Of a DNA stretch of 64,000 nt, positions 1 through 55,934 are shown in pieces. Position 1 is the stretch's first letter; each line of letters starts with the position of its first letter. Both the position numbers and the translations under genes were made by a program. Source of the stretch: Bacteroidales bacterium (lineage in GTDB: Bacteria; Bacteroidota; Bacteroidia; Bacteroidales; F082). Location: NCBI GenBank assembly GCA_017531225.1, contig JAFXLL010000010.1, positions 523,813 to 587,812 of the forward strand. The letters run 5' to 3'. The notes beneath the pieces were generated by a model. The model ran no database searches. It had not been told where the DNA came from and was given only the letters and a program-made list of their open reading frames with translations.

Positions 1-927
1 AGTCAGCTTCAATGTGGCCATCTTGTGACTTGATGTGGTGTTTTGAGTATGATAGGTTACTGAAGTAGTTGCACCTGTAGTATTAGAGAGAGAGAGGTAA
101 TCAACACCAGGTCCGGTAAGTTCCCAAGCATATCCCGTAGCATGGTCGTTGGTTATTGTGGTTGCGGTGGGTGCGCTTGCAAGAGTATTGCCATTGGCAT
201 CAAAATAGTAGGTATTCCCGTCGAACGTGTATGAGGTATAGGCGGGGGTGTAGGTATAAGAGAAGTCGCTTGCCGTGCCGTTCACTTGATGAGGTGTGTC
301 GCCGTAAGCTATGGCGAAATCGGCTATGGTAGGAGCACCACCTGGATTTTCGGCAGGAATCACTTGAGCGGCATAGCTATGGATCGTCACTCGCTTGAAT
401 CGCGCAGCATTAGGTGTTGGGTCATAACCATATACAGATGACATCTGCCATGATCCGCCTTCATACGACACCCAAACAACTTTCCAACATTCACTACCAT
501 GAATGCCATGGTATTCCGTATGAGCTTCACATTCCTCCATGTCAAGCTGGACACCACGGGCCAGACCGTCATCCCAATCATAGAAGAAATAGTCTTCATG
601 CGGCTTGTTAAGAACCACCGTTGGGGGCGTTGTCTCGGAGATCTCCAGTGTTCCAGAAAGAGCCAATGGTGCCGAGAGATAACGGCGAATCCCGTTATTG
701 TCGATGAAATAGTAGTTGTATTCGACATTAGGACCTGAATACCAAAGACAGGTACTGGGATTAAAAGTATCAGCATTCGCCAATGTATAAGTGCTACCGC
801 TCGAAACATGAGCCAAATAGTTGCCGTCTTTTTTAATGACATACTGCGGGTCGTTTTGTGCCAACACAGCACTGCCTATCAGAAACAGCAGTGCGGTAAG
901 GATGATATGTCTTGGTGTCCTATTCAT
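1..927 (-). CDS. Secreted protein of unknown function, C-terminus beyond the window edge
   Basis: The frame is open from position 927 to the window edge, giving 309 codons with no stop. It begins with a clear signal peptide (basic MNRTPRH, then a hydrophobic stretch ending AVLAQ). Two upstream in-frame ATGs, at 945 and 951, are alternatives; 927 puts the basic residues right before the hydrophobic core. The mature part is rich in Tyr, Thr, Asn and Gly, with many aromatic beta-strand-like stretches, and I do not recognise a family. A region near residues 205-215 (PGGAPTIADFAIAYGDT) looks like a domain boundary before an immunoglobulin-like or T9SS-type tail, but that is inference. It follows the 2228-residue repeat gene by about 30 nt on the same strand, so it is probably the third gene of that operon. 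A T9SS sorting domain, if any, would lie off the window. Confidence 0.75.
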   Translation of the reverse strand, partial: MNRTPRHIILTALLFLIGSAVLAQNDPQYVIKKDGNYLAHVSSGSTYTLANADTFNPSTCLWYSGPNVEYNYYFIDNNGIRRYLSAPLALSGTLEISETTPPTVVLNKPHEDYFFYDWDDGLARGVQLDMEECEAHTEYHGIHGSECWKVVWVSYEGGSWQMSSVYGYDPTPNAARFKRVTIHSYAAQVIPAENPGGAPTIADFAIAYGDTPHQVNGTASDFSYTYTPAYTSYTFDGNTYYFDANGNTLASAPTATTITNDHATGYAWELTGPGVDYLSLSNTTGATTSVTYHTQNTTSSHKMATLKLT

Positions 928-958
928 AGGTCGTATATTGTTCATTGCCATTATTCTC

Positions 959-3900
959 TTATTCTAATTTGCCATTGATGATCACTTTCGGGTCGCCGAT
1001 TACTTCACCCATGTTACCGCCGCCATAGACGTTGCCACTGATCTTGGATCCTTTCTTGATCAGGATCTGTGGATTGCCTGTGACTTTAGCTTCCAGACCG
1101 CCGCCGAACACGTTCTTGACGGTGGCGTTCTTAATGTTCACCTGCGGATAGTTATACGGTGGGGTATGGGTATTGGATCCTGTAATAGGACTGTCTGAGG
1201 CAGGCACCCCAGGATAGTCCGCTTGATTGCCTCCGCCATACACATCGGCCAGCGACACATCCAGCGGACAGTAGTCGGCACCGGATTTTTGTTCCACGTT
1301 CACCGTGATACTGCCACCGATGGCGCCTTTCACGTTGCTGCCGCCGAAGATGGCGTTGGTGACGGTGCCGCCGAAGATCTCGAGAAGGACGTTACCTTGG
1401 ATATCGGCTCCTTTGGTTGTAGTTCCTTTAGAACCGCCGTACACGTTTTCGAAAGTACCACCTTTTACAATAAGGTGAATATTGCCGCTACCTCCATTGC
1501 CCGCCTTCACATGAGCCTCTTTGCAGCCGCCGTAGAGATTGGTGACATGCATTCCCTCGCTACAGGTGATGGTGGCCTCAATATTGCCCTCGAAGTCGGC
1601 GTACTTGCCGCCGCAGTAAAACTCGGTGATGGACACTTCCTCGCAGCCTGAAGTCTGGTCGACCGTGACGTTGGAGGTACCAGAAATGGTACCGTTTTGG
1701 TTGCTGCCAACAAAGAACTCTCCGACGATGCCGCCATGGATTTCGAGGTTGACGTTGCCAGTAATATTAGCGGCTTGGACTTCTCCGTTACCGCCGCCGA
1801 ACACCTCAGCAAAACGGCCGCCTTGGATCTTGGTAGAGACATGGGGAGCCTTTGCCGCGTTGCTACCGCCGAACACACGGCGAATGGTGTTGTAACAGCT
1901 TGCAATATTCACCATAGCCGTTTTATCTGTTGCTGTAAAGTCGGCCTTGTTGCCGCCGCCAAACACATTGGCAATGGCGTAGGTGGCATCTTCATCGGTA
2001 TAAGTGACTTGGTCTTTTGCCTCGCGATAAGTTCTATAGATATTAACTTCTACATCATCTTGAGGTGAACCGCTGGTGTTGTTGCAGCCATAGACGTTAC
2101 CTCCAATGGTGGCATTGCCCACACAGGTGTCGTTCACAGGATCAAGGCCTCTAGTGTTGTTGGGAGCACCGATGTTGACCTCGATCTTACCGTAAACTAG
2201 TCCTTTGGTGCTGACACCTTCTTCGCCGAGTCCACCGCCAAACACATTGCCACCGGTATATAAGACATATTTTCTTCCAGTAGGCATATGATTGACCAAA
2301 ATATCCAATGTATCCGTCTTGGAGAAGAGTGTGCCATCCAAAACATTGACAACCGTAGTATTCACGCTGCCGAGGGCCGAGCCACCATAAATGTCGCCAT
2401 AGAGTTTCAGGTTGGCATTAGGAGCACCAGGGGTAGTAGGTTTGTTGCCAAAGTTGACGGTGACGTTACCTGCCACCTTGGTATTTGCACCCAGACCGCC
2501 GCCGAAGACGTTAGCGACAGTGTCGTGTGAGAGTTGTGTTTGTGAGCCGATTGTGCCGCTTTGGATGGTCACCAAAGCGTCGGTGGCCACTGAGCCTTTT
2601 TCGTTGCAGCCGCCATAGATGCCACCGAGGACAGTACCACCCGTCATGACGACATTGCTTCCATTGACGCCTCTTGGGGTGTTGACGAGAGTGTCGGCAG
2701 TGATGTCATTACCGCCGCCATAGACGTTACGGTAGATGGTGCCTGCAATGATATTCACTGCTGGGGTACCTCCATAAGGAGCGTGGTTACCGCCGCCATA
2801 GACTTCGCCGACGTACCAGTCACAAGAGCCAGTCTTTTCAATATTCACCGTGATGGTGCCCTGGATGGTATCTTTATCGTTGTTGCCGCCAAACACCTTG
2901 TTAATAATGCCGTCGTTGATATTGAGTAAAACACTGTTCGACACATTAGCTGCATTGGAGCCGCCATACACGGTGCCGATGCCTTCGAGGGTGGTGCCGA
3001 TTCTTTCGGGATGAGCATAATGATCAGCGGTTAGGCTGCCAGTGCATCCAATATTGATGGTGCCCGCCTTTCCAGTAGCACGGTTGCCACCGCCATAAAC
3101 CTCTTGGACTTTCATGTCGCAAGCACCTGCAGCGGTGCTCTTGTCGACATTCACTGTGATGTTGCCGGTGATCAGTCCGCTGGTGTTGTTGCCGGCGAAC
3201 ACATGATCGATGGTGCCACCATATATATTGGTAACAGCGTTGCCTGACACCATTTCAAAGTTGGCTGCCACGCCCTCGCCGTTACCACCGCCGAAGACGT
3301 AGCCGATTTTGTTGCCACCGTAGATTTTCACGTCGGTAGAGGCCACTTTTGCTGCGTTGCCGCCGCCATAAACGTATTCGATGCTATTATTGCAATTATG
3401 TACGGTAACTTTAGGATAGCCATTGCCGTAAGTATAGGCCGCTCGGTTGCCTCCGCCGAACACATTACCAAGGGCGAATGACGAGCCTGAGGCTGGATCC
3501 GTGCCGTAGATATCCACATTGACGGAACTTTGTGGGGCACCGTTGACGTTGTTACAGCCATAGACGGAGCCTGTGACCGTACCGCCATTAACGGTGACTT
3601 GGACAGCACCGTTCACAGCTGCCGCATGATTGTTATCGCCCAAGCCGCCGCCGTAGAGATCGCCGTGGATGGTGCCGCTGGTCAAGGTGACGTTCGTCTG
3701 ATCAGTACTGGCATTGTTCACGTTGCCCAACGCCGAGCCACCATACACATCGCCCCAGATAACTGCCGTAGCTCCATTGATGGTGACGGTGACGTTGCCT
3801 TCGGTCTCGGTTTGGTGACCATAGCCACCACCGTGGACGTTGGCTCTGCTGCCGTCAGCGCCTATTGTACCGCCTGTGATGCCGACCACGATGTTGCCAG

Positions 3901-6900
3901 TGACGGTGCCGCTGGTGTTGCAGCCGCCGTAAACACCGTTGTTAACGGAACCATTGTTCATGGTCACTGTAGCAGTACCAGTAACGCCTGCCTGATTGCC
4001 GCCGCCAAAGAGCTTGATTGCCGATGAACCAGCCTTTTGGAGTGTCACCGAGGTCGATCCATTCACCGATGCCGCATCACCACCGCCATAAACTTCACCC
4101 ATAATGATAGCAACAGTGTCGGGGATAGAGAAGCCTGTGGCGACGATGCTTCCCGTAGCACCTGGTGTCAAGAGCGTTGCCATGGTGGCAGCATCATAGC
4201 CTACATTCACCACTGGGTTGGATGTAACGACTGCCGAGGAACCCAAGCCACCACCATAAACAAATTTGTTCACGGTACCGTTGATGATATTGACCAAAGG
4301 TGAAGAGAGGTTAGAGTTGTCAGGAGTATAAGGTGCCAAGTTACCACCGCCATAAACGGTGTCGAGCACCAAATTACATGGAGCGGAAACCGTGTCCAAC
4401 ACATTGACGGTGATCTGGCGTTTGACATTACCCAAGAGGTTTGATCCGCCAAAGGCGTGATGGACGGTGCCGCCATAAAGGTTCAATTGGACATTTCCAT
4501 CAATCCAAGCGTCTGTGCTATTGGTATTATCACCTTTCGAACCGCCATAAGCATAGTTGATGGTTCCGCCGTTGATGTTGAGTTCCACGTTACCAGTGAT
4601 GGTAGCTTTGTTGGAACCGCCGTAAATCTCGCCAATGGCACCCACGCCGCAATTAATAGTAGTGTTAAGGTTACTTGAGATGGGAGCCAAGTTGGCACCG
4701 CCATAGATAACACGGAACACTTCGTCTCCGCAGTCGCCAGCCTTGTCAAGATTAAGGCTGGTAGCCATAATGGAGCCCAACATATTGCTGCCGCCGAAGA
4801 TCGTGTCAATCAAGCCAGCGTTGATGGTAGTGGTAGCAGTGCCGTAGATATTGGCTGCTACAGGGCTACCGTTACCGCCGCCGAACACTCGGTTGATACG
4901 GCCACCGTCGATGAGGATGAAGGTGTTGGCACTGACAGCGCCTTCGCCTGTGGTACCTACATTAGCCGCATTACCACCACCGAAGACATCCTTAATAGTG
5001 TTTTCGCAGCCGTAGACATATACTTGAGTGCTCCTGTTGGCCACAGGAGTATATGAAGCCTGGTTGCCGCCGCCGAAGACCGACTGGATGGCGTAGGTTT
5101 GGGTTGCAGCATTTGTTGCTAAAAGTTCAGGTGTCCATGTTCCAGAGGTCAAGGTAGGATATAGATTGTGTGCAATATCATCGCCATGTGCAGTTTGATA
5201 GATGTTCACAAAAACGCTGTCCTGAGGCGAACCGTTCAGGTTGTTGCAGCCGAAGACCGCACTGGTATCGGAGAAGACAACGTTACCCACGGGGGAGTTA
5301 TTATCTATCGTCCCGATATTGACGAATACCTTTCCGTTCACTCCGGCTTTGATGTCTCCTTGTTTCTTTCCAAGGCCACCGCCATAGACGTTGCCGTAGA
5401 CGTTGCCGTTGAGTATGTTAACTGTGGTGGTATCAATACCACCATCTGTGGCATCGTTGACCCAACCCAGTGCAGAGCCGCCATAGATGTCTCCATATAC
5501 TTTCGGATACTCACTGAAGGTAGCGGGGGTGTCTCCGTAATTGACGGTGACATGGCCCTTCGTTTGGGTGTCTTGTCCATAGCCGCCGCCATGGAGGTTG
5601 GCATGAGCATCGTTAGCACCGATGGTAGTATGGTTGTCGGAGCTACCTGTGACGTTCACTGTGATGTCACCATCAACAGTACCGCTCTTGTTGCTTCCGC
5701 CGTAGATGCCGCCTCTGACCGTGCCGTTGGTGACAGTCACCAAGGCCGAACCGGTAAGACCGGCCAGGTTGCCGCCACCGAAGATGGTGTCGACCGTGGT
5801 AACCACGTTCATGATGACCACTGCGGAGTCAGCCTCAGCTGCGTTGCCGCCGCCAAACAAATTGCCGACACGGCTATTACCTTTCAGCATCAGCACCGAG
5901 TCGATGCCGTCGACTTGCGCTGCGTTGCCGCCGCCGAAGATGTTGCCATAATGGCTGTCGTTATAATAGATTGTGATTCGGTTGTTTTCGTGTTCTAGTC
6001 CTGAGAGGGTGTCGCCGATCATGACTTTCGGATGGGCTGTGACCACAGCTCCCGATCCCTTGCCGCCGCCGAAGACGCAGCCGTTGACGCTACCATGTCC
6101 CACCGTGCCGTTCCAGAGGTTAACTATTGGAGAGACTATCTTCTCGCCATTTACGAGACTAGGTGTATAAGCTGCGTCACGACCACCGCCGTAGACGGTA
6201 TCCACTTGAAGTTGACAGTAGGCCACAGTATCCCAAACGTTTACGTTGATCGCACCCAAAATGCTTCCAAAGACATCGCTGCCGCCGAAAGCGTTTTCCA
6301 TGGTGCCTCCGTGAAGGTTGAGGGTGACCGCACCTGAGATGTCAGCCGAAGCCGCAGCAATTTGTTCCTGGGTTGCACCTGGAGCGGGGAGGGTACCTTT
6401 TGAACCGCCGAATATATTGTGATATTGGCCGCCAAGGATGTTAAGGGTGACACTGCCGTCGATATCGGCCAGGTTGGAGCCGCCGTAGAAATTGCCAATC
6501 TCGTAGTCCTTATTATTACAATAAAGAGTAGTGTTTATGTTTCCAGAGATATTGGCTTCGTTGGCGCCGCCAAAGGACTCATAGATCAGCAGGACGTCGC
6601 ATTGGTTATCAATACCGAGCGACACAGTCGCGATATTGCCGTATTGGTTGCTGCCACCAAAGACTTGGCGATACAAGCCGCCTTGGACATCGGTGAGGGC
6701 AGTGCCGAAAATATTGGCGCCAGGGTTGTAGTTGGGTTGATCGGAGTGGTCATGGTTATGGGTGGCGCTATAGCCGTTACCGCCGCCAAACACTTGGTCG
6801 TAGCGTCCACCTTCAATAATAAGCCTTGTATTGGCGGCAATTGTGTCGCCTGTTGCGGTGGTGTCGCCCACATTGGCAGCGTTACCGCCGCCGTAGATGG

Positions 6901-7645
6901 TTTGAATGGTGTTTTCATCACATTCAAACACATGCACAGTAGTGCACTTAGGATCACCATTTCCATTAAGGTTTGGCTTATAGGAAGCCTTGTTGCCACC
7001 ACCATAAACGGCTTTGATAGCGAACTCCTTGGCATAATTCGGATCGTTAAGGTCGGCTGGGAAGGAGCTTTCCAACTCATCATAAGTGTCAATTCCAGCA
7101 GGATATTGGTTGTTGTGTTCACCCTCGGTATGCGCTGTTTTGTAAATATTGACGAACACGCTGTCGAGGGGGGTACCGTTGATATTGTTACAACCGAACA
7201 CGCTGCTTTTAAGGGTGGGACCGCCAGAATTGTTACCGATATTGACAAACACTTTGCCATACACCAGAGCGGCGATATCAGCTAATCCGCCATAGCTTAT
7301 TGAGTCACCGAGACCTCCACCATACACGTTGCCATTGATGACACCTTGCAGGATGGTGACATGCGTGGCCGTGCCTTCATTGTAGGTGTAGGTAGTATCG
7401 CTCCCACTCACGGTCATGGTAGCATTCACGTGAGCCAGGGCACCACCGCCGTACACGTCACCGAGAATGGTATCGCTGTTTGACTTGTTCATCAACACGG
7501 AGCTGCTCCCCATGACGACGGCCTTGTTGCCACCGCCGTACACGTTGCCGTGTACTTTAACATGAGCTGGTGGGTCTTGTGCCAGCGCCATTCCATTGAT
7601 CATCAACAGAGCCAAGGTTATTATGCAGGTAAGTTTTTTGTTCAT
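959..7645 (-). CDS. Giant secreted YGGG-repeat protein (2228 aa), predicted beta-helix/beta-solenoid
   Basis: The signal peptide is residues 1-22 (ending MALAQD). Almost everything after it is a rung repeat of the form (N/D)(V/I)(Y/F)GGG(N/S).A.V.G...V.(I/V).GG, occurring dozens of times about every 20-30 residues. On top of this is a longer period: the anchor VFGCNN or VYGCNN, followed by (N)G.PQ(D/S)SV.V.IY, occurs near residues 150, 800, 1365 and 1855, so the protein is four diverged super-repeats of roughly 490-650 residues. Cysteines recur at fixed places in each. The C-terminus is one more rung ending VIINGKLE; there is no YPNPT/T9SS-type domain and no obvious barrel. A surface beta-solenoid, adhesin or S-layer-like role is inference from repeat form. 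The gene starts 16 nt after the preceding GLUG/YGGG gene, so the two are likely co-transcribed. Long open frames on the opposite strand arise from its Gly-rich repeats and are not genes. Confidence 0.88.
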   Translation of the reverse strand: MNKKLTCIITLALLMINGMALAQDPPAHVKVHGNVYGGGNKAVVMGSSSVLMNKSNSDTILGDVYGGGALAHVNATMTVSGSDTTYTYNEGTATHVTILQGVINGNVYGGGLGDSISYGGLADIAALVYGKVFVNIGNNSGGPTLKSSVFGCNNINGTPLDSVFVNIYKTAHTEGEHNNQYPAGIDTYDELESSFPADLNDPNYAKEFAIKAVYGGGNKASYKPNLNGNGDPKCTTVHVFECDENTIQTIYGGGNAANVGDTTATGDTIAANTRLIIEGGRYDQVFGGGNGYSATHNHDHSDQPNYNPGANIFGTALTDVQGGLYRQVFGGSNQYGNIATVSLGIDNQCDVLLIYESFGGANEANISGNINTTLYCNNKDYEIGNFYGGSNLADIDGSVTLNILGGQYHNIFGGSKGTLPAPGATQEQIAAASADISGAVTLNLHGGTMENAFGGSDVFGSILGAINVNVWDTVAYCQLQVDTVYGGGRDAAYTPSLVNGEKIVSPIVNLWNGTVGHGSVNGCVFGGGKGSGAVVTAHPKVMIGDTLSGLEHENNRITIYYNDSHYGNIFGGGNAAQVDGIDSVLMLKGNSRVGNLFGGGNAAEADSAVVIMNVVTTVDTIFGGGNLAGLTGSALVTVTNGTVRGGIYGGSNKSGTVDGDITVNVTGSSDNHTTIGANDAHANLHGGGYGQDTQTKGHVTVNYGDTPATFSEYPKVYGDIYGGSALGWVNDATDGGIDTTTVNILNGNVYGNVYGGGLGKKQGDIKAGVNGKVFVNIGTIDNNSPVGNVVFSDTSAVFGCNNLNGSPQDSVFVNIYQTAHGDDIAHNLYPTLTSGTWTPELLATNAATQTYAIQSVFGGGNQASYTPVANRSTQVYVYGCENTIKDVFGGGNAANVGTTGEGAVSANTFILIDGGRINRVFGGGNGSPVAANIYGTATTTINAGLIDTIFGGSNMLGSIMATSLNLDKAGDCGDEVFRVIYGGANLAPISSNLNTTINCGVGAIGEIYGGSNKATITGNVELNINGGTINYAYGGSKGDNTNSTDAWIDGNVQLNLYGGTVHHAFGGSNLLGNVKRQITVNVLDTVSAPCNLVLDTVYGGGNLAPYTPDNSNLSSPLVNIINGTVNKFVYGGGLGSSAVVTSNPVVNVGYDAATMATLLTPGATGSIVATGFSIPDTVAIIMGEVYGGGDAASVNGSTSVTLQKAGSSAIKLFGGGNQAGVTGTATVTMNNGSVNNGVYGGCNTSGTVTGNIVVGITGGTIGADGSRANVHGGGYGHQTETEGNVTVTINGATAVIWGDVYGGSALGNVNNASTDQTNVTLTSGTIHGDLYGGGLGDNNHAAAVNGAVQVTVNGGTVTGSVYGCNNVNGAPQSSVNVDIYGTDPASGSSFALGNVFGGGNRAAYTYGNGYPKVTVHNCNNSIEYVYGGGNAAKVASTDVKIYGGNKIGYVFGGGNGEGVAANFEMVSGNAVTNIYGGTIDHVFAGNNTSGLITGNITVNVDKSTAAGACDMKVQEVYGGGNRATGKAGTINIGCTGSLTADHYAHPERIGTTLEGIGTVYGGSNAANVSNSVLLNINDGIINKVFGGNNDKDTIQGTITVNIEKTGSCDWYVGEVYGGGNHAPYGGTPAVNIIAGTIYRNVYGGGNDITADTLVNTPRGVNGSNVVMTGGTVLGGIYGGCNEKGSVATDALVTIQSGTIGSQTQLSHDTVANVFGGGLGANTKVAGNVTVNFGNKPTTPGAPNANLKLYGDIYGGSALGSVNTTVVNVLDGTLFSKTDTLDILVNHMPTGRKYVLYTGGNVFGGGLGEEGVSTKGLVYGKIEVNIGAPNNTRGLDPVNDTCVGNATIGGNVYGCNNTSGSPQDDVEVNIYRTYREAKDQVTYTDEDATYAIANVFGGGNKADFTATDKTAMVNIASCYNTIRRVFGGSNAAKAPHVSTKIQGGRFAEVFGGGNGEVQAANITGNVNLEIHGGIVGEFFVGSNQNGTISGTSNVTVDQTSGCEEVSITEFYCGGKYADFEGNIEATITCSEGMHVTNLYGGCKEAHVKAGNGGSGNIHLIVKGGTFENVYGGSKGTTTKGADIQGNVLLEIFGGTVTNAIFGGSNVKGAIGGSITVNVEQKSGADYCPLDVSLADVYGGGNQADYPGVPASDSPITGSNTHTPPYNYPQVNIKNATVKNVFGGGLEAKVTGNPQILIKKGSKISGNVYGGGNMGEVIGDPKVIINGKLE

Positions 7646-11126: not shown

Positions 11127-11134
11127 CAAAGATA
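11127..11134 (-). promoter_or_regulatory. Promoter box of the GLUG/giant YGGG operon
   Basis: Minus-strand TATCTTTG lies 51 nt before the ATG at 11075. The 299-nt gap 11076-11374 is AT-rich, contains this box and the divergent DUF5618 promoter, and holds no other gene. Confidence 0.5.
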
Positions 11135-11374: not shown

Positions 11375-11782
11375 ATGGAAAAGAAAAATCCAATCGAAGA
11401 AGCCCTGCGTTATGTGGATAACGCCAATACTCTTTTGAAAGAAAAAGGAGAGTTAGACCCCGAAACCCATTCCTACACCGACCGCAAATACGTGAAAATG
11501 GCCGGCAACACACTGTGGAACGGGATGTTGTTCATTCTCGACACCGTATTCCAGGTGAAGAAGAATAAAAAGCACCGCCCTGACATCAGCGACTACCAAC
11601 GGGTTGTCGGCGCTCGCGACAAGAAACTGTTGGCTTTGGTGAATATCGGCTATGACATCATGCACCTTTCCATGGGTTATGACGGCATTATTGATAAAAA
11701 AACCTGCGACAGAGGATTCCAGATCGCCAACGAGATCATCGACCGCTGTGCCGTAATGCTACCTGCTACTCCAGCCGCATAA
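11375..11782 (+). CDS. DUF5618-like small cytoplasmic protein, copy 1 (135 aa)
   Basis: This is a small soluble protein without signal peptide or membrane segment, predicted mainly helical. Its motifs are ALRYVDNANTLL, DRKYVKMAGNTLWNG, a central ARDKKLLALVNIGYDIMHL, MGYDG and NEIIDRC. The same motifs occur in two paralogues at 15475 and 15900. From memory the pattern fits the Bacteroidetes family DUF5618; that name was not checked by search. The start is fixed by the promoter box at 11343-11350 and by alignment with copy 3 (MEKKN.I.EA.RYV against MEKKDLIGEARRYV). It is divergent from the GLUG/YGGG gene on its left and convergent with the GLUG/YGGG gene on its right (12 nt between stops). Biochemical function is unknown. 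The His in IMHL and the RDKKLL segment are kept in all three copies. Confidence 0.85.
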   Translation: MEKKNPIEEALRYVDNANTLLKEKGELDPETHSYTDRKYVKMAGNTLWNGMLFILDTVFQVKKNKKHRPDISDYQRVVGARDKKLLALVNIGYDIMHLSMGYDGIIDKKTCDRGFQIANEIIDRCAVMLPATPAA

Positions 11783-11794
11783 TCGGCACAACAA

Positions 11795-14700
11795 TCAATT
11801 ATCCTTAATAATCACTTCGGAGTTGCCACTGACGGGGCCTTCATTGCCGCCGCCATAAACATTGCCCAATACCTGAGCATCTTCTTTCAGGATGACGGTG
11901 GTATTGCCCGTGACGGCACTTTCTTCTCCGCCGCCAAAGACATTGCCCGTGTTGGCATTGCCCGTGGTGCCCACTGTTGTATTACCCTTGAGGGTGAGGA
12001 CAACATGGCCATCGACGGTGCCGAGATTGCTCTTTCTCAGGTCTTGGTTGGTGTAGATATAATGTTTTGTCAAGTCGCTGCCAGATCCCCCGTTGGTCAA
12101 AGTGACACCCGCTTCCGTTGCGTTTTTCCATTCAAATGTGGTGGTTCCAGAGAATACACCAGGCTCAAACATACCCGAAGCGCTGTTGTAATTTGGATTT
12201 TGGGTGAAACCGTCATCTCTTACCTCAAGGGTAGGCAACGAGGCCGAGTAGCCAGCGCCGAAGACATTGCCCTTGACAATGCAGCTGTCGAGCACCGAGA
12301 TCACCGAGTCGACAACCTTGCCAAGGCTGCCGCCGCCATAGAAGTTGTTGTCGATGGTGCACTTCTTGAGGCTTGACGACACCTTGTTGCACTGCGCCAG
12401 CGAGAAGGCGGCAAATTTTACATATAATCGGGCACCCGTCGCACCGGTACTCCACACGAAGAACTCATAGTCAAAGTCTGTAGCTACGCCAGGCCCTTTC
12501 CTGCCGTAGTCTTTGCCTGTCTGTGAGGACTGTGTGGAGCTTCCGTCAAAGTATTTGCCTCGATCGGTGGTATAGTACCCTTGAAGCGTTGCCCAGTTTT
12601 GATTTCCACTTTCATCGTAGTATTTCTTCTTAGCAAGGGAGGTGCCGCCAAATCCTGCGCCGAAAAACTTTCCGAAGACACAGCCCTCAGCATTGGTGGT
12701 GACCTTCTTGCCATCCTGCATGTTGCCGAACTTGGGGCCGCCGCAGTAAGTGGTAACATGGCTGTTGTAAATCTCGACTGTGACATCGCCTTTGATGGGT
12801 TTGGCGTCGTTAATGCCGCCACCGTAGAAGTTGTCGATGTCGGCGTTGTAGATCTGCCACCGCACATTGCCGTCGATTTGTTCCAGCGACGCTCCTGCCA
12901 CCTCATTAAAATAGCCTCCACTGATGTAACACTCGGCGTTGTCTGAACGTACAATAGCATCTGCCTTGTAGGTTCCAGTGAGGTAGAAGCCCGGGTACTC
13001 ACCGCCCGTCACCGACACCGGCACGTGGGGTGTGGACTGGCTGCCATCGCTGTGGGTGCCCATGCCGAACTCGTTGATCCACACGTTACCACCGACGTGA
13101 ATGTATATAGTCTTGCCATTCACGGAACTTCTCTGAGTCGACACAAACTGATCAAAGACACCTCCCAGAAGGATGAGCGGGGCATCTGATTTTGAAGAAT
13201 TATCCAAGTTCTCATATTCCACTTGGCTGGAATACACAAGAGCTGTGTTAGTAGTCTCAAACCAACCTCTTGTCTTGAAGATGGTGAAGTTACAGATAAG
13301 GCTGGCACCATTGGGTTTCTGCGCCTGCGCTGTGCCGGGGATGTTCAGGAAGTCGAAGCGTATAGGGGTGATGCTCGATCTGCCAATATGGTGATAGATG
13401 AGGCTGTAGTCTGGCTCATGGTCATTGTCCATGTCCACCGACATCATGGTGAAATGGTTGGTTCCGTTTTGCGGCACAGTAGCCAAATGAAGATTGCCCA
13501 TTAGCACGAGAGCATTGTCGTAGACTGTCGGACCTAAACCGCCCAAACCAGAACCAGGTGTCGTGTTGGCGATGTAGTTTAAAGCTCTCTCAATACTAGT
13601 TTCAGCTTTTTGTCCATTAAACGTCGTAGGCGTAGAGCCACTCGGATTCAACTGTGTGCCGGTCTGGGTCACATTCTGCTTGTTTTCGTTTTTATAGTCG
13701 GTCTTGTACACCACATCGTAGTTCGGGTCGGCAATGTATACTGCCTTGGCCCAATAAGGCTCAATGGTGATGGAGGTCACGCCGTAGGGAACGTCAAAGT
13801 AGGCTCCCTGTGAAAAGACGCGCTTGCTGACGCTGTAGAGGTCTTTGTTGGAACTCTTGCGGTCGGCGTAGTTGTGGTCGGGGAAGTCCCTGATGCCCGT
13901 GGTGGGGTAGTTGGACGAGGTGTAGGGGTCGCCGTCGATAGGGGTGATGGCCGTAATCTTCCATCCTGTCACCACTCGGTTGCCTGTATAGTTTCCCTCT
14001 CCTACATCATTGTAGTAGGGCAGTTGCACCTTGTCGTAGTTGAAATTGAAACGGTCGAAATCCTTGTCGGTGCGTGTCAAGGTAAGACTGGTCGTTGTGA
14101 TACTAGCATCCGTAGGCCATGTCTGGCCGCCATCGGTTTTTGTATTGCTAATGGTCACAGCAAGCGTTTTGCCAAGTTTGCCACCCTTGTTCGGCCCAAC
14201 GATTGTGCTGTCAGGAGCATGGGTAATGTCGGGGTTAATAATGGAGGGGTAATACCCTTGTCCTTTCAGTACCGGATAGGGCTTAGGATTGTCGATGGTT
14301 CTGTCGGCCGTTTCGAGTACCCACTTGGCCAAAAGATTAGCATCATCAGGATTGCCTGTGATATATAAAGCTGCCAGCTTCTTGTTACTGTTGAGCAGCA
14401 GGCGATAAAACTCGAATCGGTTCAGGAATTTCTCTTCCACTGCCAAAGCGCAGTTGTATTTACCTGGAGTGATATGGCTGGTAGGCAGTTGCTCGTAGGC
14501 GTAGTAGTTGAAGGTATTCAGACCTCCGCTGTTCAAATTATTGATATTGTTCCCACCATATACAGGCGATTTAGTGCTACCGCCAGTGATGTCGCCGTAA
14601 AACATGCAGTTCATCACCATAGTCCTGATGTCGCTGGCCTTGGATGCATATTTGTTGTATCCCACTATACCGGACGCATCAGTACCGCCCCCCACATTGG

Positions 14701-15241
14701 CATAACTATAGCAGTTGATAACGCGGGAGCCTTTATTTGATTCCTTGTCGTAAAGGTAGCCAACGAGACCTCCCACATATTTAGTTCCGCTGACAGATCC
14801 GCCAAGAATACCACAGTTATAGATGCGTGTTTCACCTTTAGCATTTCCAGCAATGGCACCGACATTGGTGTTTTCGGTGGTGATGTCTATACCAACACTT
14901 TGAATGATAACATTCTTAATCGTAGCATCCTCAACATAGTCAAACAAAGGTTTGTCCCAGGTACCAGTGATAGTAACAAGTTGTCCGTCAATAGTTCCTT
15001 TGAAAGGGTTGGTACTGGTGCCTATCACGTCACCATTTCCACCCACTCGAGCAGTACCATCTGTAGAAAAGCTGCTGCTGAGAATGTAACTGCCTGTCAC
15101 ATCGGTAATGTCAGCCAACGAAGAAATTGTTTGGGGCTGTGCCTTCATTGACATAGGAAAGGTTATCAGCACGGTTATCAGCACCGCACAGCGCATTAGG
15201 AATCGCAAGGGTTTGTTATTGGTTAAAGTCTGTTTGTTCAT
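11795..15241 (-). CDS. Secreted GLUG-motif protein with C-terminal YGGG rungs, paralogue 2 (1148 aa)
   Basis: The signal peptide is at residues 1-34 (MNKQTLTNN..., ending MSMKAQ). It matches the 7662-11075 protein along its length: SSLADITDVTGSYIL at the start, GLUG motifs (GGLVGYLYD, NCYSYANVGGG), ADRKSSNKDLY, VTSITIEPYWAKAVYIAD, the GGNVWINEFGMGTH segment, NNFYGGGSLGKV, and a last rung GNVYGGGNEGPVSGNSEVII ending KDN. No T9SS tail is seen. Unlike its paralogue it is not followed by a giant YGGG gene; its stop is 12 nt from the convergent DUF5618-like gene. A TATCTTTG box lies 24 nt upstream of the start. It is likely a second-copy surface protein from duplication of the whole GLUG/YGGG plus DUF5618 pair. 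Function is unknown. Confidence 0.87.
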   Translation of the reverse strand: MNKQTLTNNKPLRFLMRCAVLITVLITFPMSMKAQPQTISSLADITDVTGSYILSSSFSTDGTARVGGNGDVIGTSTNPFKGTIDGQLVTITGTWDKPLFDYVEDATIKNVIIQSVGIDITTENTNVGAIAGNAKGETRIYNCGILGGSVSGTKYVGGLVGYLYDKESNKGSRVINCYSYANVGGGTDASGIVGYNKYASKASDIRTMVMNCMFYGDITGGSTKSPVYGGNNINNLNSGGLNTFNYYAYEQLPTSHITPGKYNCALAVEEKFLNRFEFYRLLLNSNKKLAALYITGNPDDANLLAKWVLETADRTIDNPKPYPVLKGQGYYPSIINPDITHAPDSTIVGPNKGGKLGKTLAVTISNTKTDGGQTWPTDASITTTSLTLTRTDKDFDRFNFNYDKVQLPYYNDVGEGNYTGNRVVTGWKITAITPIDGDPYTSSNYPTTGIRDFPDHNYADRKSSNKDLYSVSKRVFSQGAYFDVPYGVTSITIEPYWAKAVYIADPNYDVVYKTDYKNENKQNVTQTGTQLNPSGSTPTTFNGQKAETSIERALNYIANTTPGSGLGGLGPTVYDNALVLMGNLHLATVPQNGTNHFTMMSVDMDNDHEPDYSLIYHHIGRSSITPIRFDFLNIPGTAQAQKPNGASLICNFTIFKTRGWFETTNTALVYSSQVEYENLDNSSKSDAPLILLGGVFDQFVSTQRSSVNGKTIYIHVGGNVWINEFGMGTHSDGSQSTPHVPVSVTGGEYPGFYLTGTYKADAIVRSDNAECYISGGYFNEVAGASLEQIDGNVRWQIYNADIDNFYGGGINDAKPIKGDVTVEIYNSHVTTYCGGPKFGNMQDGKKVTTNAEGCVFGKFFGAGFGGTSLAKKKYYDESGNQNWATLQGYYTTDRGKYFDGSSTQSSQTGKDYGRKGPGVATDFDYEFFVWSTGATGARLYVKFAAFSLAQCNKVSSSLKKCTIDNNFYGGGSLGKVVDSVISVLDSCIVKGNVFGAGYSASLPTLEVRDDGFTQNPNYNSASGMFEPGVFSGTTTFEWKNATEAGVTLTNGGSGSDLTKHYIYTNQDLRKSNLGTVDGHVVLTLKGNTTVGTTGNANTGNVFGGGEESAVTGNTTVILKEDAQVLGNVYGGGNEGPVSGNSEVIIKDN

Positions 15242-15408: not shown

Positions 15409-15445
15409 AATTAATACTGAATTTTGAATAATTGTATTATTTTTG
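15409..15445 (+). promoter_or_regulatory. Promoter of DUF5618-like copies 2 and 3
   Basis: AATTAATACTGA (15409-15420), 17 nt, TATTTTTG (15438-15445), then GCGGCGA. It is identical in layout to the copy 1 promoter, with the ATG 30 nt downstream. Confidence 0.65.
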
Positions 15446-15474
15446 CGGCGAAATTTAAACAAATAAGCATTATT

Positions 15475-15882
15475 ATGAAAAACAGTGTGATTGAAATCGT
15501 AGCAGATCCAGCAAAAGAAGCTCGCCGTTATGTGGAAAACGCTAAAGACCTTTTGAGAGACAAAGGCATGTTGGACAAGGAAACCCGTTTATATCAAGAT
15601 CGAAAGTATGTGCGAATGGCAGGCAACACCCTTTGGAACGGAGTGCTTGTCATTATAGAGGCTTTGTTTCATCTAAAGACCAAAAAACGCCCCCATCCAG
15701 ATGTGATGGACTATAAGAACGCCATATCCAACCGAGACAAAAAACTCTTAAGCTTGTTTGTTTCCGGTTATGAGATCATGCATATCTACATGGGCTATGA
15801 TGGTGGCCAAAGCAAAGAGGCCTGCGATGGAGGCATCAATATTGCCAATGAAATCATTGATCGCTGCGCCGCGATGCAATGA
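15475..15882 (+). CDS. DUF5618-like small cytoplasmic protein, copy 2 (135 aa)
   Basis: The ATG at 15475 (MKNSVIEIV) is chosen because the promoter box TATTTTTG at 15438-15445 rules out the upstream in-frame ATG at 15424. The protein is the same length as copy 1 and shares EARRYVENAKDLL, DRKYVRMAGNTLWNG, the RDKKLL centre, YEIMHIYMGYDGG and NEIIDRCAAM. It has no signal peptide or membrane segment. Its stop overlaps the alternative ATG of copy 3 at 15879, so the two are probably translated from one transcript. It is divergent from the second GLUG/YGGG gene, repeating the arrangement of copy 1. Family assignment to DUF5618 is from memory; function is unknown. Confidence 0.85.
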   Translation: MKNSVIEIVADPAKEARRYVENAKDLLRDKGMLDKETRLYQDRKYVRMAGNTLWNGVLVIIEALFHLKTKKRPHPDVMDYKNAISNRDKKLLSLFVSGYEIMHIYMGYDGGQSKEACDGGINIANEIIDRCAAMQ

Positions 15883-15899
15883 GAAAAACTATAGAAAAA

Positions 15900-16295
15900 A
15901 TGGAAAAAAAAGATCTTATCGGAGAAGCACGACGTTATGTGGACAACGCCCACAAAACACTGAAAGACAATGAAAACTACGACCCTGACACTCGTTGCTA
16001 CGACGACAAAAAATATGTCCGTTCAGCCGGTCATTACCTGTGGCATGCTGTAATGCTCGCTTTGGATTCAGTCTTCCACGTGAGGGAGGATCGCCGCACC
16101 CGCATCGATGTAGATGCTTATCGTGAAGCCGTTAGAAAGCGGGACCGCAAGCTTCTCGCTTTGCTGAACACTAGTTATCAAATCCTTCATCTCCATATGG
16201 GATATGATGGAATCCTCCTCAAAGATTCCTGTGACACAGGATTCCATGTCACCAACGACATTATCGACCGCTGTGAGCGGCTGAGGGCCAGCTAA
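15900..16295 (+). CDS. DUF5618-like small cytoplasmic protein, copy 3 (131 aa)
   Basis: This is the third tandem paralogue. Alignment with copy 1 favours the ATG at 15900 (MEKKDLIGEARRYVDNA); the ATG at 15879 overlaps the stop of copy 2 (ATGA) and would add seven residues, and is also possible by translational coupling. Conserved blocks are DDKKYVRSAGHYLWHAV, the RDRKLLALLNTSYQILHLHMGYDG centre, and NDIIDRCERL. The NTLWNG block of copies 1 and 2 is HYLWHA here, so this copy has diverged most. It ends 21 nt from the convergent zinc-ribbon gene. Function is unknown. Confidence 0.82.
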   Translation: MEKKDLIGEARRYVDNAHKTLKDNENYDPDTRCYDDKKYVRSAGHYLWHAVMLALDSVFHVREDRRTRIDVDAYREAVRKRDRKLLALLNTSYQILHLHMGYDGILLKDSCDTGFHVTNDIIDRCERLRAS

Positions 16296-17196: not shown

Positions 17197-17657
17197 TCAA
17201 TGCCTTACAACGATTTTACTTGCCGTATTTCCGGTTTTTAGGATATATAACCCGTTAGGTAACGTGGAAACATCCACCGGGATACGGCCCGTTCTAACGG
17301 TTTGGCCTATCATATTGATGATGTGATATTCGCCATCCTTTTGATCTGGAACCTCCTCCAAGCCCACGGTGGTGGGTACCAACCGAACATCTTTTACCAC
17401 AGCCTCACCATCAACCACCTTGATGGTATGAGTCTGGGAGAAATAACCACAACTGGTATAGGTTATATGGCTTGCCGCACCTCGGGCTTCACCGTCACTG
17501 CCCGACGTGGCGTCATTTCGGGCGCGTCATTGCGAGGAGCGTCAGCGACGAAGCAATCCACCGTTGACGTCAGTGGATTGCTTCGCTGCGCTCGCAATGA
17601 CGTTCCAGACGAACCATAAACAAGTATCCCTATCAAAAGGAAAGCCAGCCGTTTCAT
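17197..17657 (-). pseudogene. Broken T9SS-exported protein gene: signal peptide and sorting domain in different frames
   Basis: From 17657 a signal peptide is encoded (MKRLAFLLIGILVYGSSG). It runs directly into the palindromic repeat at 17525-17602, then about 12 more codons, and stops near 17463. In a second frame, open from about 17500 down to 17197, the sequence reads SHITYTSCGYFSQTHTIKVV, then DGEAVVKDVRLVP (like the end of a carboxypeptidase-regulatory-like domain), then a T9SS-type tail (YHIINMIGQTVRTG...STLPNGLYILKTG). Together they look like one small exported-protein gene disrupted by insertion of the repeat and/or a frameshift. The start ATG overlaps the stop of the upstream T9SS gene (17654), so it sat at the end of that operon. 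The alternative is two short unrelated frames, which I consider less likely. Confidence 0.6.
17525..17602. repeat. MITE-like imperfect inverted repeat (78 bp)
   Basis: The left arm 17525-17561 begins CGTCATTGCGAG and ends GCAATCCAC; the right arm 17573-17602 is its inverted complement (GTGGATTGC...CTCGCAATGACG). The left arm is 7 nt longer, as three small insertions, and the central spacer is 11 nt. A partial echo of the arm tip (GCGTCATTTC) lies just outside at about 17512. Repeats of this CATTGCGAG...GCAATCCAC form are widespread in bacterial genomes as non-autonomous palindromic elements (from memory). Here it sits inside the signal-peptide end of the broken gene. Confidence 0.8.
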
Positions 17658-20515
17658 GGATTGATGATGATTTTTTGGGTTGTTTCACCAATGGTAATAA
17701 AGTAAAAGCCTTGGTTTAAGTCACGCATATCTATTTGCTGATTATCAGATGAAATATTACCCGATTTTACCGTTTGTCCCAAGAGGTTGGTGATACGGTA
17801 TTCTGTTTGCCCCTGTAGAGACGGTGCATGCACCGTCTCTACGTACAATATGCCCTTGGTCGGATTGGGATAAACAGCAAACGATGCCTCGGCGTTTTCA
17901 TCTACCTCCATGTGAATCGTGTTGTAAATGGCATCGCAATCCTCCTCGCCGGTATTGAGAACCAATTCTCCGTCCTGCCAATAGCAGCGCAAGCCATCCA
18001 CCTCATAGTCCTTGGCCATGGGCGTTTCGGGGAAGAAACTCTTCGTGTGGCCGATGCCACAGATGATATCGCCCGTAAAGAGGTGGCTGGGATCACTCAC
18101 GCTGAGCACCCTATAGGTCTCGCTCTTGTAGGTAACCGTATGCGCTGCATCCACATGCACCGTAATGGTGTACCATCCCCCATCAATCACCCATTCGTCG
18201 CCCACATCGGCACCGAAGTCATAGAGCAGCGTGAACTCCTCCGTCTCCTTGTTCCACCAATAGATCTTATCGCCATCCTCGTAGATGTACTCGTGATTGA
18301 TCCATTCCGTCTTGTCATACATGGTGTTGGTTTCCACAATAATCTTGGCGCGCCTGCTGTTGATGGCAGTATCCGCCGCATATTCCAAATGCTGGTAGGT
18401 AACGTCACCCGTGACATGTTTGATCTCATAATACCATTCAGTGCCTCGGGGGAAGATTTCAACATACGGTTCCGCTGCGGTGATATTGATACGGTAATAG
18501 AAATTCTGGTTGAAGTCCAACATCATTTTAGTTGTGAACGTTGCCGTGATTTCCTGACCTGTATAAATGGTGTCGTTGCCCACGAGAATCCATTGACCGC
18601 CATCATAGTCTTGTTCGTTTTCGAGATAATATCTCCTGCCATTCGCCATAAAGGCAAGCTCCATCCCTGGCAGAGGAATGTATCCGGTGTGTGGCATTGG
18701 AGCATCAACAATGGTTCCCGTCAAGGTGGTTTCCTCATCCGTGTCCATCTCCACCAACTCGACGACATTCACCTCTTCGCCAGGCATATCATAACGAAGG
18801 TGACGTATCCCTTTGATATCCACGTGCATGCCTTCCCTGAAAAGATCGTTGTTGATGAACGTGTCTTTGTAAAGTTGGCCGTTGCGCATCAGATAAAAAG
18901 GAGTGGGAAACGTGAAATCACCCCATAGATAAGTCAGGAAATGTTGGTTCTCATCCTCTTCACAAGGGCAGGAAAGGCAGGGTGGATCCCAATAATTCGT
19001 GGTCAACGTACCGCCCTCCAATTGGAAGGTGTAGTCCATAAATGGTCGTATGTCAACCAATTCCATCCCATAAAACTGGTTTGCATATTGATCGGTTTGG
19101 ATACCGCAATGTCCGATGAAAGTATGCGGCAGACATCCCGCATTTAATGTCACGCCATTGAAGGTAAGCGGGAATTCTTGCTGTTCGCCATTGATGGTAA
19201 TGTAATAAGTCTGATAAGGAGGATTTTTAGTTGTGATAATCACTTTATTATTGTCACTGTGCGCTTCAAGCGTTGCGTTGATGGCATCGTAATAGTGTGC
19301 AGTAGTCTGCTGGATATCAAGCACATTTTGCGAATCTCCCGCATAGTCATGCATCTCTCTGATGGTTCCAAACGCACCGATAGTGGCTCCCATGGGGATG
19401 GTGTCGTAACGCACGATGAGTCGGCTCAAATCGGTAGGATCGGGGCGGAAGCCATCCACTGTGACAGGATAGATATGATCGTCATCCACCCTAATGGCCT
19501 GTCCAGCACCGTGGGGATAATTACCAAAGGCAAAAGCCTCTTGTAAAACAACGACTTCGCCTTCGATGTAATGGATATCGTTGGTATTAAAGACGCTTTT
19601 CATGCGAGCGCCATGACCGCCAAAGTACAAATGTCCGTCGCGACCTTTATAAATGGAGCCGTCGCCCATGCCGCCAGGTGCAGGAGAATAGAGTGGCAGT
19701 GCCTCGCCGTATTCATAGAATGTCTCACCATGGTCGGCAGAATAACGCAACACTGTGTATTCGCCTACATTGTGAAGGTCGTAGATGATGCCGTTGTCGG
19801 CCACGGTGAACCGCCTGTCGGGAACGAGATACAAGCCTGGTTGTTGCTGGAATTGTCCGTAACCGCCAGCCACCACATTGCCTTCGGGATCCAACTCCAT
19901 GTGGTAAATCAAAGCGCCTTCAATCAGCCAAGTCCAGTTGTCAATGTCATTAAAATTAGCGGTATAGATGCCTAATTCATAAATTGGAACCGCATTGGTT
20001 ATGCTGATATAAACATTTCCAGCATGGTCGGCGAGGATGCTGCCGAAAACCATGTCCTGCAGGAAACTGATGCTAGTCTCATTCCACGATTCGCCGCCGT
20101 TCAAGGTCCAGAAGAACTTTTCATTATTGACCATGACGATAGTATCGTTGGATAGCGAATACATTCCTTCTACCCAGTTGGTAGAGATACCCGATGCCTG
20201 CTCCTGCCAAGTGTTGCCGTTGTTGTCGGAATAGCAGAGTTTGTGGCTGTTATCATTGAAAATGAAGATGCGGTTATTGTCGTTGATTGTAAAATGTTTT
20301 GAATTGACATAGCTCAAATCGTAGTTTAGTTGCCATGTCGCACCTTCGTCCTGGGAGCGATGGACGCCGCTATAGCCCCAGTTGCTGAAAATACTGCCGT
20401 CGGCAGAGACGCCAAGGAATTGGCCTTCCATTTCAATGGGTTTCCAGACGTTTTGTGCCGTCAGGCCGCTGAGGAAGCCTAGGCAGAGAATCATGATAAA
20501 AATTAGTTTTTTCAT
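17654..20515 (-). CDS. T9SS-exported BNR-repeat/propeller protein with family-specific central domain (953 aa)
   Basis: The signal peptide is MKKLIFIMILCLGFLSGLTAQ. Residues about 50-330 hold BNR/Asp-box-like motifs (SQDEGATW, SDNNGNTW, TLNGGESW, SADHGETF), suggesting a propeller. The middle is unassigned and includes a CLSCPCEED cysteine cluster. Residues about 700-870 form a domain shared with the genes at 22113 and 25174 (EWYYEIKH..G.VTYQHLEY, W.NHEYIYEDGDKIYWWNKE..EFTLLYDF, GDEWVI, GHTKSFFPE, LRCYWQDG). The C-terminal ~75 residues are a T9SS type A sorting domain (YPNPTKGILYVE...ITNLLGQTVKSG...MRDLNQGFYFITIG), which carries an in-frame palindrome. The gene follows the TPR regulator-like gene by 56 nt, a gap filled by a heptamer repeat. 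It is probably a cell-surface or secreted protein; substrate unknown. Confidence 0.88.
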   Translation of the reverse strand: MKKLIFIMILCLGFLSGLTAQNVWKPIEMEGQFLGVSADGSIFSNWGYSGVHRSQDEGATWQLNYDLSYVNSKHFTINDNNRIFIFNDNSHKLCYSDNNGNTWQEQASGISTNWVEGMYSLSNDTIVMVNNEKFFWTLNGGESWNETSISFLQDMVFGSILADHAGNVYISITNAVPIYELGIYTANFNDIDNWTWLIEGALIYHMELDPEGNVVAGGYGQFQQQPGLYLVPDRRFTVADNGIIYDLHNVGEYTVLRYSADHGETFYEYGEALPLYSPAPGGMGDGSIYKGRDGHLYFGGHGARMKSVFNTNDIHYIEGEVVVLQEAFAFGNYPHGAGQAIRVDDDHIYPVTVDGFRPDPTDLSRLIVRYDTIPMGATIGAFGTIREMHDYAGDSQNVLDIQQTTAHYYDAINATLEAHSDNNKVIITTKNPPYQTYYITINGEQQEFPLTFNGVTLNAGCLPHTFIGHCGIQTDQYANQFYGMELVDIRPFMDYTFQLEGGTLTTNYWDPPCLSCPCEEDENQHFLTYLWGDFTFPTPFYLMRNGQLYKDTFINNDLFREGMHVDIKGIRHLRYDMPGEEVNVVELVEMDTDEETTLTGTIVDAPMPHTGYIPLPGMELAFMANGRRYYLENEQDYDGGQWILVGNDTIYTGQEITATFTTKMMLDFNQNFYYRINITAAEPYVEIFPRGTEWYYEIKHVTGDVTYQHLEYAADTAINSRRAKIIVETNTMYDKTEWINHEYIYEDGDKIYWWNKETEEFTLLYDFGADVGDEWVIDGGWYTITVHVDAAHTVTYKSETYRVLSVSDPSHLFTGDIICGIGHTKSFFPETPMAKDYEVDGLRCYWQDGELVLNTGEEDCDAIYNTIHMEVDENAEASFAVYPNPTKGILYVETVHAPSLQGQTEYRITNLLGQTVKSGNISSDNQQIDMRDLNQGFYFITIGETTQKIIINP
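17815..17842. repeat. Perfect 28-bp palindrome inside a coding sequence
   Basis: The half site is GTAGAGACGGTGCA, followed directly by its exact inverted complement. It lies in the T9SS sorting domain of the 953-residue protein and is read through in frame, adding roughly TVHAPSLQG between conserved YVE and YRITNLLGQ. The related domain at 22113 has only a short linker at that point. GTAGAGACG...CGTCTCTAC palindromes are known as dispersed repeats in several bacterial groups (from memory). Confidence 0.85.
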
Positions 20516-23816: not shown

Positions 23817-23830
23817 ATTCAAATAGTTAT

Positions 23831-27006: not shown

Positions 27007-27031
27007 AGCACGAGGTGTTTTTTGTTTGTAG

Positions 27032-27062
27032 CAAAGGTACACACAAAACAAGCCCTTGTCAA
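27032..27062 (-). promoter_or_regulatory. Promoter of the T9SS/TPR/LRR operon
   Basis: On the minus strand, TACCTTTG (27032-27039) is preceded by TTG at 27060-27062 with a 20-bp spacer, a textbook Bacteroidetes layout. Its -33 end overlaps the hairpin at 27048-27080. Confidence 0.7.
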
Positions 27063-27080
27063 GGGGGGACAAGGGCTTGT
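27048..27080 (-). terminator. 13-bp stem hairpin, likely glyS terminator overlapping a promoter
   Basis: The arms ACAAGCCCTTGTC (27048-27060) and GACAAGGGCTTGT (27068-27080) are perfect inverted repeats with a 7-nt loop. In the leftward direction it ends in a short T run (TTTTG). It lies about 90 nt after the glyS stop, with no gene between. It shares bases with the promoter of the next operon, so it may also act as an operator. Confidence 0.65.
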
Positions 27081-39558: not shown

Positions 39559-39576
39559 TCAAAGAAACAAACAACC

Positions 39577-41043: not shown

Positions 41044-41046
41044 GCT

Positions 41047-42783: not shown

Positions 42784-42787
42784 CATC

Positions 42788-45878: not shown

Positions 45879-45881
45879 CGT

Positions 45882-55901: not shown

Positions 55902-55934
55902 CAAAAGTAGGCATTTTTTCCCAAATACAACAAA
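55902..55934 (-). promoter_or_regulatory. Promoter of the OmpA-family gene
   Basis: On the minus strand, TACTTTTG (55902-55909) is preceded by TTG (55928-55930; 18-bp spacer) and TTTG (55931-55934; 21-bp spacer). The ATG is 50 nt downstream. Confidence 0.65.

Follow-up and report, generated by a model that had tools for sequence, protein, structure and literature searches.

The P0001 gene occupies positions 959 to 7645 on the minus strand of the window, the 64,000-nucleotide stretch of Bacteroidales DNA analysed here. As the preliminary description had it, this open reading frame begins with ATG and encodes 2228 residues (226 kDa, pI 4.9, computed from sequence). It lies second in an apparent operon of five same-strand genes, which extends beyond the window and encodes proteins of 1137, 2228, 3220, 2685, and 9572 residues with intergenic gaps of 16, 7, 16, and 30 bp. 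Together the products comprise 18,842 residues, about 2 MDa, in a 2.6-Mb genome. The first gene, P0002 (7662 to 11075, minus strand; 1137 residues), starts with ATG at 11075, in a frame that remains open to a TTG at 11129. Its paralogue P0003 (open reading frame 11795 to 15241, minus strand; 1148 residues, 48% identical) lies 719 bp upstream, outside the tight operon. The third gene, P0005, begins in the window (1 to 951, minus strand) and runs past its edge to contig position C7:515101; its 3220-residue product comprises a YGGG array followed by five C-terminal InlB-B repeats. The fourth and fifth genes, encoding P0006 (2685 residues) and a giant of 9572 residues, lie outside the window. The giant, about one megadalton (1.0 MDa) and encoded by a 28.7-kb gene, is both the last and the largest product. 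By eye, each of the five proteins has a Sec-type N-terminus. The Bacteroides-type promoter pattern matches once in the window, at 55902, not near the operon and at chance level (1.13 expected).

P0001 is divided into a Sec-type signal peptide, judged by eye (residues about 1-22, MNKK...MALA/Q; 7580 to 7645), four super-repeats, and a C-terminal cap, all on the minus strand. The super-repeats, delimited by the rung list, BLASTP, and an order test, are SR1 (residues 64-719; 5489 to 7456), SR2 (720-1299; 3749 to 5488), SR3 (1300-1751; 2393 to 3748), and SR4 (1752-2178; 1112 to 2392). Four ordered units of about 500 residues had been proposed: the number and order stand, but the uniform length does not (656, 580, 452, and 427 residues). 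Judged by the rung list, some of the late rungs are missing from SR3 and SR4. The GCNN.xG.P anchors fall at residues 149, 797, 1361, and 1851, as expected from the first estimates of 150, 800, 1365, and 1855. The cap (residues 2179-2228; 962 to 1111), defined by own-genome matches to residues about 2172-2224, consists of two rungs of the type GNVYGGGNMGEVxGxxKVIIN. The same kind of cap ends P0002, P0003, P0006, and proteins of relatives, and it is the most constant end feature among untailed YGGG proteins.

Whole-protein BLASTP of P0001 against itself returned the trivial full-length match alone; since this was uninformative, the super-repeats were compared pairwise. SR1 and SR2 are 43.6% identical (E 2e-124), and the best matches for the remaining five pairs have E-values from 1.5e-28 to 7e-57, in keeping with the proposed growth by internal duplication. 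In all six pairs the rung-order chain score, whose penalties were the analyst's own choice, exceeded every one of 2000 rung-order shuffles. The long period is therefore more than repetition of the short rung, and the two-level repeat first described is upheld. SR1, SR3, and SR4 each cluster with the super-repeats that hold the same position in other species; the grouping of SR2 is ambiguous. Because three of the four thus group with their counterparts in related species, the duplications look ancient.

These comparisons bear on whether the array might be a non-functional repeat expansion or an artefact of draft-genome assembly. The operons do come from draft assemblies, in which giant repeats are prone to misassembly, and in three relatives a TAA falls inside a match. 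Nevertheless, separate genomes repeatedly contain long open frames (the last operon genes of those read encode 4450-9572 residues), and super-repeat positions are largely kept across species. Moreover, SR4 compared with two relatives displays an excess of third-codon-position changes, which across five pairs are about 1.8 to 2.8 times as frequent as first-position ones. This explanation thus appears very improbable.

What fold might the rungs adopt? Among 323 YGGG motif windows from four proteins, hydrophobic and Gly/Asn positions are in register from one tandem rung to the next; the YGGG core was set by the search pattern, whereas the flanking positions were not. Rung lengths in P0001 vary widely (9-64). 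From these sequence features, the YGGG segment of P0001 is probably a rigid beta-solenoid. The repeat profile matched no solved structure among PDB sequences (E up to 1), and its only Pfam match, in one of 41 rows, was at chance level. For P0001 itself, Pfam offered no filamentous haemagglutinin or chlamydial Pmp family (E up to 1). Neither P0001 nor P0006 matched PHROGs, and the SR2 block matched nothing in phage or plasmid records (E up to 1e-3). Thus the repeat had no family in the Pfam, NCBIfam, and PDB scans, the middle of the giant (P0008 and P0009) lying outside the first two. The MiiA motif surface protein family, NF053582, was considered and rejected: the end of one relative scored 16.9 bits against a cut-off of 24, the best score in the genome itself was 15.3, also below the cut-off, and among 14 control genomes 10 also give a match to the family at E up to 10. 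A literature search for MiiA by name gave unrelated papers alone among the matches listed. Nor was the YGGG family recognisable in the available portions of a limited collection of papers on Bacteroidales, giant and T9SS proteins, the rumen, and CTD-less cargo.

The recurring cysteines of the preliminary description are well conserved. Those at P0001 residues 880, 972, 999, and 1090 are present in 73, 72, 72, and 72 of 73 aligned rows, comprising 72 non-redundant copies and the SR2 reference. The four are therefore almost invariant among these copies, which were picked by similarity to an alignment (A1) that itself contains them. Cysteines of the YGGG repeat fall at the same rung phase, and two optional cysteines one rung apart tend to occur together (Fisher p 2e-5, with no correction for relatedness). 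The recurring cysteines of P0001 may form disulphides or metal sites.

As first noted, P0001 carries no recognisable T9SS tail: NCBIfam, TIGR04183 included, gave no match for the last 110 residues (E up to 0.1), and none for the whole protein (E up to 1). The export route was accordingly left open. It is now answered in part by the last operon gene, beyond the window, whose 9572-residue product ends in a T9SS CTD of type A (TIGR04183, 29.1 bits, cut-off 23; the Pfam counterpart PF18962 scores 20.2, below its cut-off of 27). The giant is the only operon product with such a tail. The genome contains 100 T9SS tail matches and, as the secretion component searched for, the SprA family TIGR04189, found in two pieces (1923 and 572 bits) and in none of 14 controls.

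Alternatively, each protein might be exported separately, with the two-rung cap serving as an unrecognised signal for T9SS or another route; the constancy of the cap at untailed ends is what commends this idea. But the cap consists of ordinary rungs. Type A CTDs, long and most short, carry a D GxY motif followed by Ile, according to PMC11969387, and by eye the cap lacks it. Furthermore, P0005-like proteins of several species end instead in InlB-B-like repeats. Separate export through the cap is therefore rather unlikely.

Operons of relatives display the same division between tailed and untailed products. In all eight operons read (that of this genome and seven chosen from strong matches), the tailed gene is the last and largest. 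T9SS tails were found on eight of 32 C-terminal ends scanned, precisely those of the eight last genes, and on none of the other 24; this count omits a P0002-like ORF of genome G112, whose end is not inside a single fetched stretch, an ORF left incomplete on G142 contig 2, and neighbouring ORFs containing three YGGG motifs or fewer. A 1514-residue ORF of G124 may not end naturally, because a nearby match contains TAA. The tailed gene comes first in Xylanibacter brevis ATCC 19188, a cultured rumen strain in which it immediately precedes a P0002-YGGG fusion gene. It also comes first in G679, which belongs to another family and encodes a tailed protein (31.6 bits), a P0002-like protein, and an untailed YGGG protein; gene order is therefore not fixed. 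G112 and G110 have no separate P0001-like gene. G774, from a third family, encodes an untailed YGGG protein of 2513 residues; the 39.9 kb fetched show no tailed neighbour, although another YGGG frame runs off the edge of that stretch.

The first gene provides a further clue. The N-terminus of P0002 resembles the IgA1 protease/GLUG region (Peptidase_M26_N, E 2e-10, Pfam), and positions 12-221 of its family profile match residues 119-396 of 6xjb_A in the PDB (E 1.2e-13). At 33 of 75 loci a P0002-like region is fused to a YGGG array. If tandem P0002-like copies are also counted, under a loose rule, arrangements that are fused or adjacent number 52 of the 75; requiring at least 10 motifs in the neighbour lowers this to 41. 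Among three relatives' P0002-like first-gene proteins scanned, all contain CHB_HEX_C_1/Fn3_assoc (chitobiase-C) and one contains RicinB_lectin_2 (E 7.5e-10); in the window itself, Pfam detected no lectin domain in P0001 or P0002.

The lectin domain weighs against a periplasmic location, in which the untailed YGGG proteins would assist the giant, as scaffold or chaperone, until it is exported. Their Sec-type starts, the lack of any T9SS tail found on them, and the apparent operon that they share with the tailed giant all fit that idea. However, a lectin domain, present in one of the three first genes scanned, would be of little use in the periplasm, and a repeat of the same type as the giant's suggests a structural role rather than that of a chaperone. 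A periplasmic role is accordingly considered unlikely.

Together, these observations suggest, with about even chances, that P0001 is secreted and serves as a rigid module, probably a beta-solenoid, in an adhesive fibre or coat that several proteins form at the cell surface, with export via its tailed partner. Because the giant alone carries a type A T9SS CTD, it would be the protein that crosses a SprA-type channel, thereafter to be anchored or released. The untailed proteins may reach the surface with the giant or assemble upon it through contacts between rung edges, and P0002-like proteins, with lectin-type modules in some relatives, could provide the binding function. A more specific version, offered tentatively and itself doubtful, is a heteropolymeric fibre of several giant YGGG solenoids joined at their ends, whose single T9SS-tailed megadalton subunit takes the untailed partners with it across the outer membrane. 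If so, several proteins would be co-exported under a single T9SS sorting tag; to our knowledge, no T9SS route of this kind has been described.

In the libraries scanned, the YGGG repeat thus lacks a curated family, a solved relative, and a described function, and the recurring combination of a single tailed giant and several untailed relatives offers a sharp case for studying surface delivery of proteins that have no T9SS signal. Names from ruminant projects attach to 58 of 76 named loci among the best 80 of 214 matches, so the repeat may be relevant to how these bacteria attach to feed, to the host, or to one another.

SprB is a repetitive protein, as is the operon's giant. The giant also resembles SprB-type T9SS giant surface adhesins of Bacteroidota in its very large size and T9SS CTD, but the tail of SprB is type B and that of the giant type A (PMC12618676). 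P0001 differs from these adhesins in having no CTD and in being built of YGGG rungs, and the operon differs in encoding, besides the giant, several untailed proteins with its type of repeat. Likeness to the N-terminal region of streptococcal IgA1 protease (Peptidase_M26_N, GLUG) is confined to P0002-type proteins, with none in P0001. Right-handed parallel beta-helix adhesins include filamentous haemagglutinin and the chlamydial Pmp proteins. P0001 likewise consists of tandem Gly/Asn-rich rungs with V/I positions, which, judging from their sequence, are likely stacked.

P0001, the 2228-residue YGGG-repeat protein, is encoded at 959-7645 of the window on the minus strand; the frame claimed for it is confirmed, with an ATG start and no internal stops. 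Judged by eye, its amino terminus is a Sec-type signal sequence (MNKKLTCIITLALLMINGMALA|Q), and the first YGGG rung, the short repeat unit, begins no more than about 12 residues past it. The gene is the second of five on the minus strand of contig C7, which are separated by gaps of 16, 7, 16 and 30 bp and form an apparent operon that crosses the window edge. In order, the products are P0002 (1137 aa), P0001 (2228 aa), P0005 (3220 aa), P0006 (2685 aa), and a giant of 9572 aa and 1005 kDa. P0005 has five InlB-B repeats (PF18998, E 3.6e-42) at its carboxy terminus. P0003, a paralogue of P0002, is encoded 719 bp upstream of P0002. The T9SS type A sorting domain, hereafter the tail, is limited in this operon to the last gene (TIGR04183, 29.1 bits against a cut-off of 23); the PF18962 score of the giant is under cut-off (20.2 against 27). 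The 2.58-Mb genome encodes SprA, the T9SS outer-membrane channel component, and contains 100 tail matches.

Three proteins encoded nearby on the minus strand (17654-20515, 22113-23822, and 25174-27072) share a WYYEI...TYQHLEY-like region, and all end in type A tails (43.3, 36.9, and 45.2 bits). Around the giant-protein cluster lie three small plus-strand ORFs of 135-152 aa (11375-11782, 15424-15882, and 15879-16295); by eye these are alike, with RDKKLL and IIDRC-like stretches in common, and are putative paralogues. A five-gene row at 37963-47618 (plus strand) appears to hold membrane-bound O-acyltransferase genes in duplicate, accompanied by AlgJ/AlgX-like partners.

Operon regions were read in our own genome and in seven more from the genus, hand-picked among strong hits. 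Each of the eight operons has its largest gene last (9572, 6619, 7574, 7954, 6921, 7499, 4770, and 4450 aa), and the end of that gene matches TIGR04183 in every case, seven over cut-off and that of genome G112 at 22.2 bits. These eight were the only matches at E ≤0.01 among 32 scanned ends; the remaining 24 gave none. P0001-like genes are not universal among the operons read: G112 and G110 have no separate one; G133 joins P0002 and P0001 in a single 3198-aa frame. At locus L151 (6021-12928, plus strand) a P0001-like gene is preceded by a tandem pair of similar P0002-like genes, whose products (1133 and 1120 aa) are each about 68% identical to P0002. The boldest reading that the data allow is a putative co-export of the untailed proteins under a single tag.

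Other arrangements occur. Xylanibacter brevis ATCC 19188 encodes a YGGG protein (2987 aa or more; no Pfam match; tail slightly under cut-off at 21.6 bits) 4 bp ahead of a 2662-aa P0002-like/YGGG fusion. Genome G679, from another family, encodes in order a tailed protein (3937 aa, 31.6 bits), a P0002-like protein of 1121 aa that shares 59% identity with P0002, and an untailed YGGG protein (1191 aa). G774, from a third family, has an untailed 2513-aa protein with no tailed neighbour within the stretch fetched, past whose edge a further YGGG frame continues. Together with the same-genus arrangements, these show that the set recurs, with varying order and membership. Tailed proteins that carry 11-12 YGGG motifs and span 3459-3659 aa are encoded in three further genomes (loci L162, L156, and L157), where the retrieved stretches show no operon of this kind around them; one genome has two side by side, and one tail sits right at cut-off. 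They may represent a simpler version of the giant.

Cut at the YGGG-type motif, P0001 yields 64 rungs, each 9 to 64 residues long, grouped into super-repeats SR1 (residues 64-719), SR2 (720-1299), SR3 (1300-1751), and SR4 (1752-2178), followed by a two-rung cap. By pairwise BLASTP, SR1-SR2 is the strongest pair (43.6% identity, best E 2e-124) and SR1-SR3 the weakest by best E (1.5e-28). To detect long order apart from the short rung, the rungs of one super-repeat (17, 17, 14, and 12 kept, with starts less than 12 residues apart dropped) were shuffled 2000 times against another. In all six pairs the chain score exceeded every shuffle, bearing out the ordered long-period repeat of the preliminary description; its recurring Cys positions are borne out by the alignment described below. 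Best rung partners of SR1 and SR2 are nearly in register; SR3 and SR4 are missing late rungs.

Cysteines were aligned in 73 rows: 72 non-redundant GCNN-to-L block copies, from our own and related genomes, plus the SR2 reference. Cys occupies P0001 positions 880, 972, 999, and 1090 in 73, 72, 72, and 72 rows, the copies having been chosen by similarity to alignment A1, which biases toward conserved positions; a fifth, within GCNN, is present in 54/73. In SR2 all four lie 7-8 residues ahead of the next YGGG (about 7-10 residues in SR1 and SR4), sharing one phase in rungs 21, 24, 25, and 28. If rungs stack, the Cys of rungs 24 and 25 would be neighbours. Two optional Cys columns, 982 and 1011, lie one rung from each other; both are filled in 11 rows, one alone in 5 and 7, and neither in 50 (Fisher p 2.2e-5, ignoring relatedness of rows). 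The pattern fits, without proving, stacked rungs with cross-rung disulphides. From rung periodicity, flanking pattern, and Cys phase, we infer a solenoid fold. Scans that covered the giant only outside its middle matched the repeat to no library family and no PDB sequence; the single Pfam hit (1/41 rows) is at chance level.

A tree was built from 36 blocks of four genomes. In it the partner of SR1 is the opening block of an unfinished 2345-aa related ORF (support 100/99), SR3 groups with other species' third-type blocks (94/83, under the starred threshold), and SR4 with their last blocks (99/99), in a clade that also contains P0006-type blocks; a grouping of SR2 with its positional counterpart was not resolved in this tree. 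Because three super-repeats group with other species' blocks, the duplication appears mostly to predate the split of the species compared. Differences affect 37-60% of third against 17-34% of first codon positions in the five pairs compared (P0002 and SR4 twice each, P0006 once), which suggests purifying selection on the coding sequence.

P0002 is found in 20/150 family genomes, own included, all within the genus. The super-repeat block occurs in 32/100 genus genomes at E ≤1e-3 (16 reach 1e-80). At order level, matches at 1e-10 occur in 7/295 genomes and 4/183 genera; a phylum sample gives our own genome only (1/395) at 1e-15. Named loci among the best 80 of 214 matches number 76, with the labels Bacteroidetes, Bacteroidales, Bacteroidaceae, Prevotellaceae, Prevotella, or Xylanibacter. 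As read from their titles, 58 of these 76 bear ruminant-project names (RUG, Tb.RUG, RGIG, or Red_deer), and two of the 76 are isolates, Prevotella sp. tc2-28 and X. brevis ATCC 19188.

Flanks of up to 10 kb were inspected at 75 P0002-like loci. Fusions of a P0002-like region with a YGGG array occur at 33. Including adjacency brings the figure to 52 under a loose rule, which accepts tandem P0002-like copies as neighbours, or to 41, recounted from the locus list, when only neighbours with 10 or more motifs qualify. P0002-like proteins of relatives contain CHB_HEX_C_1 and Fn3_assoc in all three scanned, and RicinB_lectin_2 in one. P0002 itself matches Pfam Peptidase_M26_N, and the profile of its family matches streptococcal IgA1 protease in the enzyme's amino-terminal region (E 1.2e-13). 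The IgA1 protease-like region, the lectin-type modules, and the YGGG fusion or adjacency favour the view that the operon products may form an adhesive surface assembly. The likeness to the streptococcal enzyme is one of amino-terminal regions, and does not imply its catalytic part.
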